Origin: Alphaproteobacteria bacterium | GTDB taxonomy: Bacteria > Pseudomonadota > Alphaproteobacteria > DSM-16000 > Inquilinaceae | NCBI GenBank assembly: GCA_028277405.1 | Contig: JANQGH010000026.1 | Location: forward strand, 1 to 64,000 | Direction of reading: 5' to 3' | DNA: 64,000 bases | Shown here: piece after piece, positions 14,359-19,997 of the stretch | How the letters are laid out: every line of letters starts with the position of its first letter | Position numbering within the stretch: position 1 is the first letter of the stretch | Made by a program: the position numbers and the translations under genes | The notes under the pieces: generated by a model | Database searches by the model: none | What the model was told of the DNA's origin: nothing | What the model saw: the letters and a program-made list of their open reading frames with translations, nothing else

Positions 14359-15741
14359 ATGGCTTTCGACTACGACTATTTCGTCATCGGCGCGGGGTCG
14401 GGCGGCGTGCGCTCGGCCCGTATCGCCGCTCAGCATGGCGCGCGTGTCGCCATCGCCGAGGAACGGTATTTCGGCGGCACGTGCGTGAATGTCGGCTGCG
14501 TGCCGAAGAAGCTGCTGGCTTACGCCTCGCACTTCGGCGAGGATTTCTCCGATGCCGCCGGTTTCGGCTGGACGGTCGGCGAAACCAGCCATGACTGGTC
14601 GCGCCTGATCGCCAACAAGGACGCGGAGATCGACCGCCTGAACGGCATCTATCAGCGCCTGTTGGAAGGGGCGGGCGTCACGATCTATGAGGCGAGGGCG
14701 GTTCTTGAGGGCGCCCACACCATCCGGGTCGGCGACGAGACCGTGACCGCGGACAAGATTCTGGTCGCGACCGGCGGTTGGCCCAACTTGCCGGACGAGC
14801 CCGGCGTGAAGGAACACGCCATCACGTCGAACGAGATCTTTCACCTCGACAAGATGCCCAAGCGGGTGGTGATCGCGGGGGGCGGTTACATCGCCGTCGA
14901 GTTCGCCAGCATCCTGAACGGTCTCGGCGCGGATGTGTGCCTTCTCTATCGCGGAGAGTTGTTCCTGCGCGGCTTCGACTATGATGTCCGCTCCACGGTT
15001 GCCGAAGAGATGGCCAAGCACGGTGTGGATTTGCGGTTTCACACCATCATCTCCCGCGTCAGCAAAAGCCATGATTGCCTGATCGTGGAACTCAGCGACG
15101 GCTCGATGGTGGAGGTCGATGCCGTGCTGATGGCGATCGGTCGCACACCGAACACGGCGGGCCTGGGCCTGGAGAGGGCGGGCGTCAAGCTGGCCGAGAA
15201 CGGCGCCATTATCGTGGACGACGACTACCGCACCTCGGCGGAGAACATCTATGCGCTGGGCGACGTGATCGACCGCGTTCCGTTGACGCCGGTGGCGATC
15301 GCCGAGGGGCACGCGCTGGCCGACACCCTGTTTGGCGGTTTCGACGACCGTTCTGTCGATTATCGCAACATCGCCACGGCCGTCTTTTGCCGACCGGAGA
15401 TCGGGACCGTCGGCCTGAACGAGGACGAGGCGCGGCGCAAGCATGTCGCGGTAGACATCTACCGCACAAGCTTCCGGCCCATGAAGCACACCTTGTCCGG
15501 CCGCGACGCCCGCTCGCTGATGAAGCTGGTGGTCGACCGGGAAAGCCAGCGTGTCGTCGGCTGCCATGTGGTCGGCGACGATGCGGCGGAAATGGTGCAA
15601 TCCGTCGCCGTCGCGATCAATTGCGGCGCCACCAAGCGCGATTTCGACCGCACCATCGGCATCCACCCGACCAGTGCGGAAGAACTGGTTACCATGCGCC
15701 AGAAGGCGCCGGAACCGGATCTGGAAGAGGCGGCCGAATAA
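14359..15741 (+). CDS. gor: Glutathione-disulfide reductase
   Basis: A 460-residue flavoprotein that reduces GSSG with NADPH. FAD-binding GAGSGGVRSARIAA lies near the N terminus, the redox disulfide is in GGTCVNVGCVPKK, GGGYIAVEFA binds NADPH, and HPTSAEELVTMR at the C-terminal end contains the active-site His of the partner subunit. The length is typical. It lies just downstream of gabD on the same strand and ends beside a hairpin at 15755-15779, convergent with the DoxX gene. Confidence 0.94.
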   Translation: MAFDYDYFVIGAGSGGVRSARIAAQHGARVAIAEERYFGGTCVNVGCVPKKLLAYASHFGEDFSDAAGFGWTVGETSHDWSRLIANKDAEIDRLNGIYQRLLEGAGVTIYEARAVLEGAHTIRVGDETVTADKILVATGGWPNLPDEPGVKEHAITSNEIFHLDKMPKRVVIAGGGYIAVEFASILNGLGADVCLLYRGELFLRGFDYDVRSTVAEEMAKHGVDLRFHTIISRVSKSHDCLIVELSDGSMVEVDAVLMAIGRTPNTAGLGLERAGVKLAENGAIIVDDDYRTSAENIYALGDVIDRVPLTPVAIAEGHALADTLFGGFDDRSVDYRNIATAVFCRPEIGTVGLNEDEARRKHVAVDIYRTSFRPMKHTLSGRDARSLMKLVVDRESQRVVGCHVVGDDAAEMVQSVAVAINCGATKRDFDRTIGIHPTSAEELVTMRQKAPEPDLEEAAE

Positions 15742-15754
15742 GCTGAAAAGAAAG

Positions 15755-15779
15755 AGGGCGGCCTGGCAAGGACCGCCCT
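15755..15779 (-). terminator. Hairpin between gor and the DoxX gene, terminator for the minus-strand bufferin operon
   Basis: A 7-bp stem AGGGCGG/CCGCCCT around an 11-base loop. Read on the minus strand, the stem is followed by CTTTCTTTTC, a fair T-rich tract, so it should stop transcripts from the bufferin operon. On the plus strand there is no T run, so termination of gor would be weaker. Confidence 0.6.
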
Positions 15780-15803
15780 TGAGCGCTGATCTGGCGCTGG
15801 TCC

Positions 15804-16328
15804 TTAGCGCTCTTTCAGGATCAGCCACCGAATGCCGTAGTCGATCGAGGCCCGGCCCGGGCCGATGATGAACAGGGCCAACCCCACGAACATCCACGGG
15901 AACTGTTCGCTGGCGATGGCGATGCCGTTTGCCATGCCCTGCTCGGTCTGGCCGACGATGAAGAAGATGGTCGCCGCCATGATCGCCAGGCCGAGGGCCG
16001 CCCAGCGGCCGAAGCAGCCGAAGACCAGCAGGACCGGCAGGGTGATCTCGGCGGCTGTGGTCACAAAGGCGGCTGTTTGCGGGTCGAGGAAGGGCACCGG
16101 GTGGATGGACTGGAAGAACAGCGGCTGGCGGCTGTAGCTTGCCAGCCGGATTTGGCCGGCATCCCAGAACGGTATGGCAAGCCAGATCCGCGGCGCAAGC
16201 AATACGAGGCCCAGAATCCAAGCCGGCATGGTGGACAACCGGTCGAACGGGCCGCGCCCGAAGACGAGCGCCCAAAAGGTTCGGGCCTTGCTGGGGGCAG
16301 GGGATGCTGCGGTGCTTTCGTACGACAT
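15804..16328 (-). CDS. bufD: DoxX-family membrane protein, last gene of the bufferin operon
   Basis: A 174-residue inner-membrane protein with four predicted helices in the DoxX pattern (LGLVLLAPRIWLAIPFW near 39-55, ITLPVLLVFGCFG, LAIMAATIFFIVG, FVGLALFIIGPG). The family is described as respiratory or sulfur-metabolism associated and is often found with bufferin genes, where it is called BufD; its task there is unsettled. It lies 15 bases downstream of bufC on the same strand. The symbol rests on context. Confidence 0.8.
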   Translation of the reverse strand: MSYESTAASPAPSKARTFWALVFGRGPFDRLSTMPAWILGLVLLAPRIWLAIPFWDAGQIRLASYSRQPLFFQSIHPVPFLDPQTAAFVTTAAEITLPVLLVFGCFGRWAALGLAIMAATIFFIVGQTEQGMANGIAIASEQFPWMFVGLALFIIGPGRASIDYGIRWLILKER

Positions 16329-16343
16329 GGGTGCTTTCCTTTG

Positions 16344-17132
16344 CTATTCAGCCGTCCCGCGATCGGTTTCCAACGACACCGTGCAGAAGGTGCCGCGCTG
16401 TAAGTGGGCGACAAGCGCATGTTGCAGGTCGAATTGCGCGTCGGTCTCGGCGGCGCGAACCGCCGCTTCTTCAAGGGTCGCGCCGCTGGCGATGGCTGCC
16501 AGCAGGGCGTCTTCTCCGGCGGTCAAAATCTGGCTGACGACTTGTGACGTCGGGCGCATCACCAACACGGTCTCGCCGCCCCGGTCCAGATCGACGGGTT
16601 TCACCTCGTCGGCCTGGTTGACCTGCCAGATGGATTGCACCGGCCAGCGTGACCGCACGATGCGGACGCTGGGGTGCGGGCGAAAGCACAGCGCGCCGTA
16701 TTGGTCGGCCGGTACGCGCTGCAGGGCGGCGATATCGACGATCGGTGCCTCTTCGGCGAACAGCGCCTCGTTCCGCGCCCACTCAAGCCTCGCGACATCG
16801 CCGAGATACGGCACCGATCGGGCCGGCTCGAAACCATCGAGAAAGGTGCCGAAACCGCCACCATAGGCCAGCAACTGCGGCTGCAGTGGCGGGTGAGCCT
16901 TCACGAATGCGCGCGCGGCCTGGTCGAAAAAGCGCTCGCCAACCAACCGCTCGACGACCGGATAGCAAGCCGCCAAGGCCTTGGACAGCGAGATCAGCGT
17001 GTTGTTGCGGTAGATGCCGACCCGGCGGTCGGACGAGATCTCATCCTCGACAATGAAGCCGCGCGCCGGAAGATCGTCGTCGCCCAGCACGCCGGCGCGA
17101 AACGCCTCTTGGATGTCAAGCAACGTGGACAT
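16344..17132 (-). CDS. bufC: BufC-like partner protein (DUF2063, putative DNA-binding-domain family)
   Basis: A 262-residue protein whose N-terminal 95 residues ([10 protein letters not shown]..., [27 protein letters not shown]) match DUF2063. In RiPP clusters with DUF692 enzymes this protein acts as the recognition partner that helps bring the precursor peptide to the enzyme. Its start overlaps the end of bufB by 17 bases, so they are translationally coupled. It has no catalytic motif that I can see. The older name 'DNA-binding domain-containing' is an automatic label; a partner role is far likelier here. Confidence 0.87.
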
Positions 17133-18036
17133 TGGCCATGCTGCTGTGCTGGGCGCGGACCGACGACAGGATCAGCTCCGCCTTGCGCGCCTCGGCCAGC
17201 AAAACGTCAAGTTCGGGGATGTTGTTGTCCCATTCCACCAGGGTGGGGGTCGGGCCGACCCGTTCTAAAGCCCGCCGAAACAGAGTCCAAACGGCGGACT
17301 CGACATGGGTGCCGTGATCGTCGATCAGGATCACCCGGTCGGTGCCGTCCTCGTCGGCGAAGTGCTGGACGAAATGCCCGGCGACGTGGATTTCCTGAAC
17401 CTTGTCCAGTGGCACCGCGTCCAGATAGGCGTTGGCATCGAACCGGTGGTTGTGGGCGCTGACATGGATATTGTTGACGTCCAGCAGCAGGCCGCAGCCC
17501 GTCCGTTTGACGATCGCGGCCATGAACTCCCATTCCGGCATCGTCGAGCTCTTGAACGACACGTAAGAGGATGGGTTTTCGACCAGCATTTGCCGGCCGA
17601 GCGCCTCCTGCGCGTGTTCGATGTTGCGGCAGATGATGTCCAGCGCCTCGTCCGTGTACGGCAACGGCAACAGGTCGTTCAGGTAGACCCCGCCGGTCAC
17701 CGACCAGGACACGTGTTCGGAGATCAGGCCGGGCTGAAATCGGTCGATCACCGCCTTGATGTTTGCCAAATGGCCCTTGTCCAGGCCTTCGGCAGAGCCC
17801 AACGACAGTCCCACGCCGTGGCAGCTCAGCGGATAGTCCTGACGGATCTTCTCCAACGCCCGCAACCTAGGCCCGCCGGCGCCGATATAGTTCTCTGTGT
17901 GGACCTCGAGCCAAGCCGCCGGCGGCCGCTCGCGAACGAAGGCGGGAATATGCGGATGGCGCAGACCGACACCGGCGCGATCGGGAATTCCCAGATGCTC
18001 GAAACCGGTATGCGCTTCACGTGTTTGGTCAGCCAT
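17116..18036 (-). CDS. bufB: DUF692 multinuclear non-heme iron oxidase (MNIO), BufB
   Basis: A 306-residue TIM-barrel enzyme of the DUF692/MNIO family. Visible family motifs are GVGLRHPHI near the start, [50 protein letters not shown] and EIHVAGH, which supply the His, Glu and Asp iron ligands. In characterised bufferin systems the enzyme oxidises Cys residues of BufA, giving copper-binding thiooxazole groups. The ATG at 18036 overlaps bufA by 8 bases; another ATG at 18045 is in frame (MAVMADQ). The open frame extends upstream, but only as antisense-free read-through of bufA in another frame. It is followed by bufC with a 17-base overlap. Confidence 0.92.
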
Positions 18037-18337
18037 TACCGCCATCCTCAGCCGGTGTGGGCCGGTCGACATCGATCGGGCCGCCACGGCCTTCAAAGGC
18101 CGACGTCGCGCCCGGCTCGACGCAGCTTCCCATTGGTACGATCGCCCAGTCGGTCCCGCTATAATCCTCGGTCGACTGTCCGGCGCAGGTGTGGGCGAAG
18201 GCGGCGGCGCAATCGTTCTCGCCTGCCATCGAGATGCCGTAGCATCGTTCCAGGCCCTCCGCGGCGGCGGGCGCGGCCATGGCGGCAACGGCGCCTGCAA
18301 GCGCGGCAATCTGGGCGGCAATTGAAGCGTTGGACAT
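18029..18337 (-). CDS. bufA: BufA-like bufferin precursor (DUF2282), copper-binding RiPP
   Basis: A 102-residue exported precursor. Residues 1-26 are a signal peptide ([16 protein letters not shown]), and the mature part has four cysteines (Cys32, 43, 51, 72) in the family pattern [27 protein letters not shown]. Such peptides are modified by the DUF692 enzyme in the cytoplasm, exported and bind copper in the periplasm. The acidic, Gly-rich tail after Cys72 (about 28 residues) is longer than in many relatives. First gene of a four-gene minus-strand operon. Control by copper or an ECF sigma factor is known elsewhere; no such regulator gene is in the window. Confidence 0.9.
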
Positions 18338-18605
18338 GTCGGCGCGTCGGTTTCTCAGTCGGTTCTGACCCGGATTTACCTTACCGGCGATCTAAAGCCT
18401 TGCACCAATGCTTTGAAGTAAAGCCTGATTGACGACGCTTCACATCCCTGTGACGAAATGTGGGGCAATCCGCGAAGAAACGGTCGAAAACAACCGCTTC
18501 GGGCTGGAAATCGGCGATTGCAGGGCGTATAGCCAGTGCCCTGTTGATCAGAGGGCCGGCTTGGGCGCGCATCGTCGCGGGCCGGCCGCTTGAGGAGGAA
18601 CCGTT
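18338..18605. promoter_or_regulatory. Divergent control region of bufA and class II DAHP synthase, with a dyad at 18440-18453
   Basis: These 268 bases separate two divergent transcription units. The stretch TCACATCCCTGTGA (18440-18453) is a perfect 5-bp inverted repeat around four bases, about 100 bases upstream of bufA, and could be an operator or part of an ECF-type promoter. I do not see a convincing sigma-70 promoter for either side. A strong ribosome-binding site, GAGGAGG, precedes the DAHP synthase ATG at 18606. Confidence 0.35.
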
Positions 18606-19997
18606 ATGGTCGAGCGCTGGAGCCCCGAGAGCTGGAGGCAACGGCCTGCCAAGCAGATGCCGGTTTATGCCGACCTGCCGCATTTGACGGCGGTCGAGGA
18701 GACGTTGACCCGGTTTCCCCCGCTGGTCTTTGCCGGCGAGGCTCGGTCCCTGAAGGCGAACCTGGGCAAGGTCGCCGAGGGCGAGGCGTTCCTGTTGCAA
18801 GGCGGCGACTGCGCGGAGAGCTTTGCCGAGTTCCATCCGGACAAGATCCGCGACACCTTCCGTGTGCTGCTACAGATGGCGGTGGTGCTGACGTTCGGCG
18901 GCGGCTTGCCGGTGGTGAAGCTGGGCCGCATGGCCGGCCAGTTCGCCAAGCCGCGCTCGTCGGACATGGAGACGGTCGATGGCGTGGAACTGCCGTCATA
19001 CCGCGGCGACATCATCAACGGCTTCGACTTCTTAGCCGAGGATCGGGCGCCCAACCCGGACCGGATGGTTCAGGCCTACAACCAGTCGGCCGCCACGCTG
19101 AACCTGCTGCGCGCCTTTGCCCAGGGCGGCTATGCCGACTTGCATAAGGTCCACCAGTGGAATCTGGGTTTTGTCGCCAAGACGCCACAGGCGGAGCGCT
19201 ATCACGGGCTGGCGAACCGCATCGACGAGGCGGTGCAGTTCATGGCCGCGTGCGGCGTCAATGCCGAAACCACGCCGCAGATCCGCGAAACCGAGTTCTA
19301 CACCAGCCATGAAGCGCTGTTGCTGCCCTACGAGCAGGCGCTGACGCGCCAGGACAGCACCACGGGCGACATGTACGGCGTCTCCGCCCACCTGCTGTGG
19401 ATCGGCGACCGGACACGGCAGTTGGATGGCGCCCATGTCGAGTTTCTGCGTGGCGTAAAAAACCCCATCGGCCTGAAGTGCGGGCCGTCGCTGGAGGCCG
19501 AGGATCTGATCCGGCTGATCGATACGCTGAACCCGGACAACGAGCCGGGGCGTCTGACCCTGATTGCCCGCATGGGAGCGGACAAGGTCGAGAAGCATCT
19601 GCCCGCGCTGGTTCGAACGGTGGAGCAGGAAGGGCGCACGGTCGTCTGGGCCTGTGATCCCATGCACGGCAATACGATCAAATCGGCCTCGGGCTATAAG
19701 ACGCGCCCGTTCGAGAGGATCCTGGACGAGGTCAGCCGCTTCTTCGATGTCCATCGCGCGGAAGGCAGCCATCCCGGCGGCGTCCATTTCGAGATGACCG
19801 GCGAGGAAGTCACCGAATGCACCGGCGGTGCCCAGGCCATCACTGATGACGGGCTCAGCCTGCGCTATCACACGGCGTGCGACCCCAGGCTGAACGCGAG
19901 CCAGGCGCTGGAACTGGCCTTCCTCGTGGCCGAACGGCTGAAGGAAGACCGGGACCGCGCGAACGGGCATCGCCGTGCGGCCGCGGCCGCCGAATAG
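18606..19997 (+). CDS. aroG: Class II 3-deoxy-7-phosphoheptulonate (DAHP) synthase
   Basis: A 463-residue enzyme that condenses phosphoenolpyruvate with erythrose 4-phosphate, the first step of aromatic amino acid synthesis. It is of the plant/actinobacterial class II type: RWSPESWR at the N terminus, [11 protein letters not shown] (metal-binding Cys), [25 protein letters not shown] and [17 protein letters not shown]. The start is fixed by a strong GAGGAGG eight bases upstream. It is followed by nicotinate phosphoribosyltransferase after 15 bases, an unrelated pathway. Class II enzymes are insensitive to some of the feedback control of class I, but regulation cannot be read here. Confidence 0.94.

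Follow-up and report, generated by a model that had tools for sequence, protein, structure and literature searches.

The bufferin operon and its relatives

The stretch of DNA analysed here (64,000 nt, referred to as the window) comes from an alphaproteobacterium of the family Inquilinaceae and contains, on its minus strand, an operon of four genes that is a further member of the published Buf1 class of bufferins. The gene coordinates were checked via translation, and the genes are followed by a hairpin.

18029–18337, minus strand: bufA, DUF2282 (Buf1) precursor, 102 aa (PF10048, E = 4.3e-19)
17116–18036, minus strand: bufB, MNIO maturase, 306 aa (PF05114, MbnB_TglH_ChrH, E = 1.9e-108)
16344–17132, minus strand: bufC, DUF2063 partner protein, 262 aa (PF09836, E = 6.5e-23)
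15804–16328, minus strand: doxX, DoxX family membrane protein, 174 aa (PF07681, E = 1.2e-11)
15755–15779, minus strand: hairpin of 9 pairs that resembles an intrinsic terminator, with a T-rich tail behind it

The canonical order with overlaps of 8 and 17 bases, described in the initial annotation, agrees with the translated coordinates: bufA and bufB share 8 nt (18029–18036), bufB and bufC share 17 nt (17116–17132), and doxX starts 15 nt past the bufC stop codon. A second possible start codon of bufB is located at 18045. The gene order bufA–bufB–bufC with DoxX, by which Buf1 operons are recognised, is thus present, and all four proteins exceed the curated Pfam cut-offs. BufB scores 384.4 bits against NF050167, the NCBIfam model of the MNIO bufferin maturase (cut-off 310). 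BufA reaches 20.8 bits against NF050166 (Buf2/BufA2; cut-off 60), BufC reaches 50.9 bits against the HvfC RRE family of NCBIfam (cut-off 142), and DoxX is below the cut-off of the NCBIfam HvfX equivalog. Since these three proteins fall under the BufA2, HvfC, and HvfX cut-offs, the operon fits Buf1 (DUF2282) and not Buf2.

The iron ligands of TglH are H71, H107, E151, D184, N187, H216, D229, H231, and E258 (PMC10880893). Their equivalents in BufB are H73, H108, E153, D186, N189, H217, D239, H241, and E268, and all nine are invariant across 12 aligned BufB proteins. The ligands from E151 to E258 were mapped by pairwise alignment together with profile alignment to chain 8hci, while the first two were placed by profile alignment of the 12 BufB proteins to chain 8hci, with positions counted by hand. 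Iron-binding residues of the DUF692 enzyme, whose loss the initial annotation had named as a point against its own reading, are therefore kept in full (9/9 TglH ligands). In addition, D270 of BufB aligns with the Asp of the DF pair in 3BWW and is probably equivalent, judging from this alignment, to the catalytic Asp249 of FonB. The following residue is Asn and not Phe; the residue after the catalytic Asp is described as not conserved in DUF2282-type MNIOs (PMC13097082). Families, gene order, cysteine pattern, and the nine ligands together uphold the identification of the locus as a bufferin operon.

The hairpin lies past doxX, ahead of a convergent gene. A scan of positions 15000–19500 found two such sites against a mean of 3.4 in shuffled sequences, which is not beyond chance. 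The fold itself is stable: the 66-nt stretch gives −23.9 kcal/mol (z = −3.08), and none of 200 shuffles was as stable.

The names of neighbouring genes used here (aroG, napRT, gor, htpG, and others) are a reading of their translations. The operon adjoins aroG in the window and in six of the nine relatives with bufAB, and napRT and gor are also near in some of them; this neighbourhood points to vertical descent. Of the nine family stretches with bufC, tblastn detected DoxX in six. In one relative (G015, L112:4552–5326), DoxX is missing from the operon, and the convergent gor gene follows bufC directly.

The genome to which the window belongs (97.7% complete, 101 contigs) contains one match to MNIO and two to DUF2282. 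The second precursor lies on another contig.

G000:C12:27253–27408 (L105:5014–5427), contig C12: orphan DUF2282 precursor, 90.3 bits with the Pfam model

It is placed between a nuclease-like gene and htpG, as read from translations, and no MNIO match was found near it on C12. Stand-alone precursors have already been reported (PMC12452194).

DUF2282 was detected in 100 of the 289 sampled genomes of the class. The survey of bufA–bufB pairs covered 93 loci: 61 with the pair (L074 and L106 among them are the same operon), 30 with BufB and without DUF2282, and 2 without BufB. DUF2282 was recognised by a regular expression. Among those 30 loci, L113 and L114 contain a bufA that the expression missed, L116 is a fragment of a contig, and DUF2282 is encoded farther upstream in L084 and L101 and on the opposite strand in L053 and L056. 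The remaining BufB loci may have Buf2 or other precursors. Of the 80 nearest BufB loci (L025–L104), 27 have no DUF2282 pattern just upstream; in four of these, it lies at a greater distance or on the opposite strand.

The BufA precursor and its C-terminal tail

The four core cysteines noted in the initial annotation are C32, C43, C51, and C72, and they are invariant in an alignment of 20 DUF2282 proteins, as are G34, G39, N41, D42, and G53. In Buf1 bufferins, which have a Sec signal and the bufABC order with DoxX, the two central cysteines are reported to be modified and the two outer ones disulphide-bonded (PMC12452194). The N-terminus of BufA resembles a signal peptide by eye, with a hydrophobic stretch and an AxA-like site. 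Its n-region contains neither K nor R, which is unusual for a Sec signal; the same is seen in the relative G014. BufA has no lysine at all; a start at an in-frame CTG, seven codons before the ATG, would give it three more arginines. The protein lacks the NAAGTHSC motif of most relatives, its alignment to the Pfam model stops 6 positions short of the model end, and its Pfam score is 69.5 bits versus 90.3 for the orphan copy. The AlphaFold model, built from 20 sequences, is modest, with a mean pLDDT of 63.4 (48–56 in the other four models); the block means are 76–86 at residues 31–70 and 42–50 from residue 81 onward.

The part of BufA beyond the core was singled out in the initial annotation as an unusually long Gly/Asp/Glu-rich tail.

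18032–18121, minus strand: BufA tail after the last Cys, 30 aa, predicted to be mostly disordered

The length stands: 30 residues is the longest tail among 89 distinct DUF2282 proteins, whose median is 14. These proteins were collected from the window, 80 genome_contigs loci, 12 family stretches, and 27 high-scoring class loci, 25 of which contributed; detection was by regular expression, and the lengths therefore describe a sample and not a census. The next-longest tails have 27, 26, 26, and 26 residues, so the range is continuous and BufA is at its end. In the other precursors of the host family, tails are 18–26 residues long, and the tail of the orphan is 13. The acidity is common in the family. 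The tail has 3 D, 3 E, 2 R, and 7 G, which corresponds to a net charge of −4. The same charge is found in six of the 11 other family precursors, with tails of 19 residues, and in nine of the 89 proteins overall (the window and six other family members included); elsewhere in the family, it is −5 in G013, −3 in G014, 0 in G001, and +1 in G005. An unusually acidic tail is thus rejected within the family. The tail is a mild extension, predicted to be disordered, and no evidence of a distinct functional variant.

A frameshift artefact was also considered and rejected: by eye, neither of the other frames after FEG resembles a family tail, and the relative G013 also has an in-frame FxGxGG tail.

Comparison of the bufA–bufB junctions gives a simpler account of the length. 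The distance between the last Cys codon and the conserved block near the BufB start is 151 nt in the window and about 105–263 nt in nine relatives (the block was counted one residue earlier in G011 and G001, an offset of 3 nt). The bufA stop codon lies at +93 from the last Cys codon, while in relatives it lies at +57 to +81. The additional residues fill what is a spacer in the relatives and cross the presumed ribosome-binding region of bufB, and the last ten codons of the tail have a GC3 of 0.5, compared with about 0.8 for the core and the early tail codons. All nine relatives retain a spacer between bufA and the nearest plausible bufB start, whereas the window has the 8-nt overlap. Among the 61 operons, the window is the only one in which the aligned BufB start overlaps bufA, although alternative starts leave some others possible. 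Since the DNA between the last Cys and BufB is no longer than in relatives, the tail looks like the result of a shifted stop. Most likely, on this comparative evidence, the bufA stop codon has moved into the bufA–bufB spacer, by about 11 codons relative to most relatives and by 4 relative to G013. Such a shift would have produced both the disordered end and the 8-nt overlap, which could couple translation of the two genes.

The tail might instead be a functional addition, such as an acidic disordered arm serving as a second metal site or interacting with the membrane or a partner. Its rank as the longest of 89 fits this, as does the similar in-frame FxGxGG stretch in the 26-aa tail of G013, which indicates coding sequence and not a frameshift. 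However, the tail contains no Cys, His, or Met, six relatives with tails of 19 aa have the same charge, it is predicted to be disordered, and its last ten codons, with the lowered GC3, cross the translation start region of bufB. We regard a functional tail as very unlikely.

The element upstream of bufA

The initial annotation mentioned in passing a dyad upstream of the operon and gave no coordinates; it was taken here as positions 18439–18454. It forms part of a longer element.

18430–18454, minus strand: composite element GTCACR-N4-TGTGA-N5-CGTSA, upstream of bufA
18439–18454, minus strand: dyad GTCAC-N6-GTGA(A), within the composite element, starting 117 nt upstream of the bufA ATG

Within the window, the 14-base core of the dyad is not enriched (three matches at up to three mismatches, 4.1 expected). 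In the host family, the dyad is conserved before bufA. Exact GTCAC-N6-GTGAC precedes the second bufA copy of G007 and the bufA genes of G013 and G014; the window and G011 deviate from it by one mismatch, and G009, G010, G015, and the operon copy of G007 by two, and for these last four the match by itself is not beyond chance (53–163 per 1000 shuffles). No dyad was found upstream of bufA in G001 and G005, and the orphan bufA of the window's own genome has a chance-level match only. The distance from the element to the ATG is 116–180 nt across the family. Among the upstream regions of the 89 DUF2282 proteins, the dyad at up to one mismatch occurs in five, all of the host family. In the bufA upstream regions of the genome_contigs loci, it occurs in none of 57; one of these, L074, is the host family's own G007 operon, with the dyad at two mismatches.

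Genome-wide, the exact 16-mer dyad taken alone is not rare, with 35 sites in the 17 family genomes versus 23 for the reversed pattern, and three of the 35 are at bufA; the genome of the window has no exact site. The looser core TCACA-N4-TGTGA has three sites there, against none for the control. The composite element, at up to one mismatch, has nine matches in the 17 genomes, six of them upstream of bufA, and the reversed pattern has one. It is present at two mismatches in G009 and G010 and at five in the G007 operon copy, where only the dyad is kept. The pattern was derived from the sequences scored, so the count at bufA is not independent; the reversed-pattern control and the positions of the matches are, and scarcity elsewhere is the informative part. 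The three sites away from bufA lie, by ORF reading, near a ccoG-like/DUF3179-like pair (L174), an AraC-like gene (L168), and a response regulator/metallo-hydrolase (L175). They have no gene in common and were taken as chance and not as further targets. The L174 site (L174:1501–1525, relative G007) is a one-mismatch element between the ccoG-like and DUF3179-like genes, maybe by chance; ccoG has an association with copper oxidases.

The element or its dyad lies in the aroG–bufA intergenic region in the window and six relatives, so it might belong to the divergent aroG and not to bufA. This is improbable. In G013, the exact dyad has a divergent neighbour that reads as a methyltransferase, and at the second, MNIO-less bufA of G007, which also has the exact dyad, the neighbour reads as hemerythrin-like; neither 8-kb stretch has an aroG match. 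These two exact dyads indicate that the element tracks bufA. Of the features considered here, the dyad has the best independent support and is a better lead than the tail.

In Caulobacter, operons of this kind are described as controlled by the ECF factor SigF with the anti-sigma factor NrsF through GTAACC-N16-CGAA (PMC3511200, PMC8224329). A search for this motif (up to two mismatches, spacing 15–17) in the 300 nt before the window bufA found none, and a SigF promoter was therefore rejected for this region. NrsF has no match in the 97.7% complete genome of the window. It is over the cut-off in six of the 17 family genomes, all of one genus, and the two bufA genes of that genus (G001, G005) are without the element. 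In the other 11 genomes, NrsF is under the cut-off in all, with a sub-threshold match in G009, and each of the eight that have bufA has the element or its dyad. The SigF motif with two mismatches does occur at the element-bearing G013 (spacing 17) and the second bufA of G007 (spacings 16 and 17), and also at the orphan of the window's own genome and at G001 of the NrsF genus, while G005 of that genus has none; these matches make the motif test ambiguous at the level of the family. The distribution of NrsF and the element fits a switch of regulator, with the reservation that it is a single clade split and that the motif scan is unclean. The element may be the sign of another control that took the place of SigF/NrsF. 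In a limited literature search on the regulation of such operons, no such element was seen.

Alternatively, the element could itself be an ECF sigma promoter, with GTCAC as −35, 15 nt of spacer, and CGTC as −10, and not a dyad for a repressor or activator. In the nine aligned upstream regions, GTCAC or GTAAC is kept in eight and CGT at the same distance in five, and the sigma-F factor of Caulobacter uses the comparable GTAACC-N16-CGAA (PMC3511200). However, CGTC itself is kept in just three of nine. The right arm of the dyad falls within the would-be spacer and is conserved (TGA in 9/9, TGTGA in 5/9), which is unexpected for a plain spacer, the spacing and −10 are unlike those of sigma-F, and NrsF was not found in the genome. 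An ECF promoter is thus rather unlikely.

Proposed model and known systems

The whole is best explained, with a probability of roughly 0.9, by a Buf1-type bufferin (captophorin) operon for a copper-buffering peptide, with a shifted bufA stop and a transcription start near the element. The genes with their order and families, the iron ligands, the tail statistics, the junction spacing, and the conservation of the element support a complete, largely ordinary Buf1 operon with a mild tail extension. Points against the model are the n-region of BufA devoid of K and R, its missing NAAGTHSC motif, its shortened Pfam alignment and lower score, the BufC and DoxX scores under the NCBIfam cut-offs, and the missing SigF-type promoter. 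Transcription would probably start at or near 18430–18454, under a regulator or a sigma factor distinct from SigF/NrsF. BufA would be made with a Sec-type signal and presented in the cytoplasm by BufC to BufB, an iron enzyme expected from homology to convert the two central cysteines into 5-thiooxazoles. After export, the peptide would be closed by a disulphide linking its outer cysteines and would bind and buffer periplasmic copper; DoxX would be accessory. Going further, it can be tentatively proposed, at somewhat less than even odds, that in this family the operon has left SigF/NrsF, that a dedicated undescribed regulator responding to copper or envelope stress acts on the element and has few other targets, and that BufBC also matures the second precursor.

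Bufferins, a very large class described only recently, are secreted copper-buffering peptides thought to soak up excess copper. The locus adds an ordinary bufferin in which the precursor tail varies while the core and the enzyme are kept. The conserved element offers an entry point to the activation of bufferin operons in bacteria that lack NrsF, and one MNIO found beside two precursors is a simple case for asking whether BufBC acts in trans.

The closest counterpart is the Buf1 operon CC3254–CC3257 of Caulobacter vibrioides (DUF2282, DUF692, DUF2063, DoxX), with the same four families in the same order; it belongs to the sigma-F regulon (PMC3511200), and the same four families are reported as copper-induced in Caulobacter (PMC8224329). 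That operon is driven by sigma-F with NrsF, whereas the window's genome has no NrsF match and its operon a different upstream element. With Buf1 bufferins generally (PMC12452194), the locus shares the four cysteines of DUF2282 and bufABC with DoxX, and its precursor has a candidate Sec-type signal; it differs in a tail near the upper limit of the sampled lengths and in the 8-nt overlap of bufA and bufB. Similarity to Buf2 is weak (20.8 bits to NF050166, cut-off 60), and Buf2 precursors are reported to have six cysteines in 90% of cases (PMC12452194), whereas the core here has four. The captophorins fontiphorin and oxazolin (PMC13097082) share the MNIO and its DUF2063 partner, and the position of the probable catalytic Asp is kept (D270, 3BWW alignment); their precursors carry EGKCG repeats where this one is DUF2282, and the Phe beside the Asp is Asn here.
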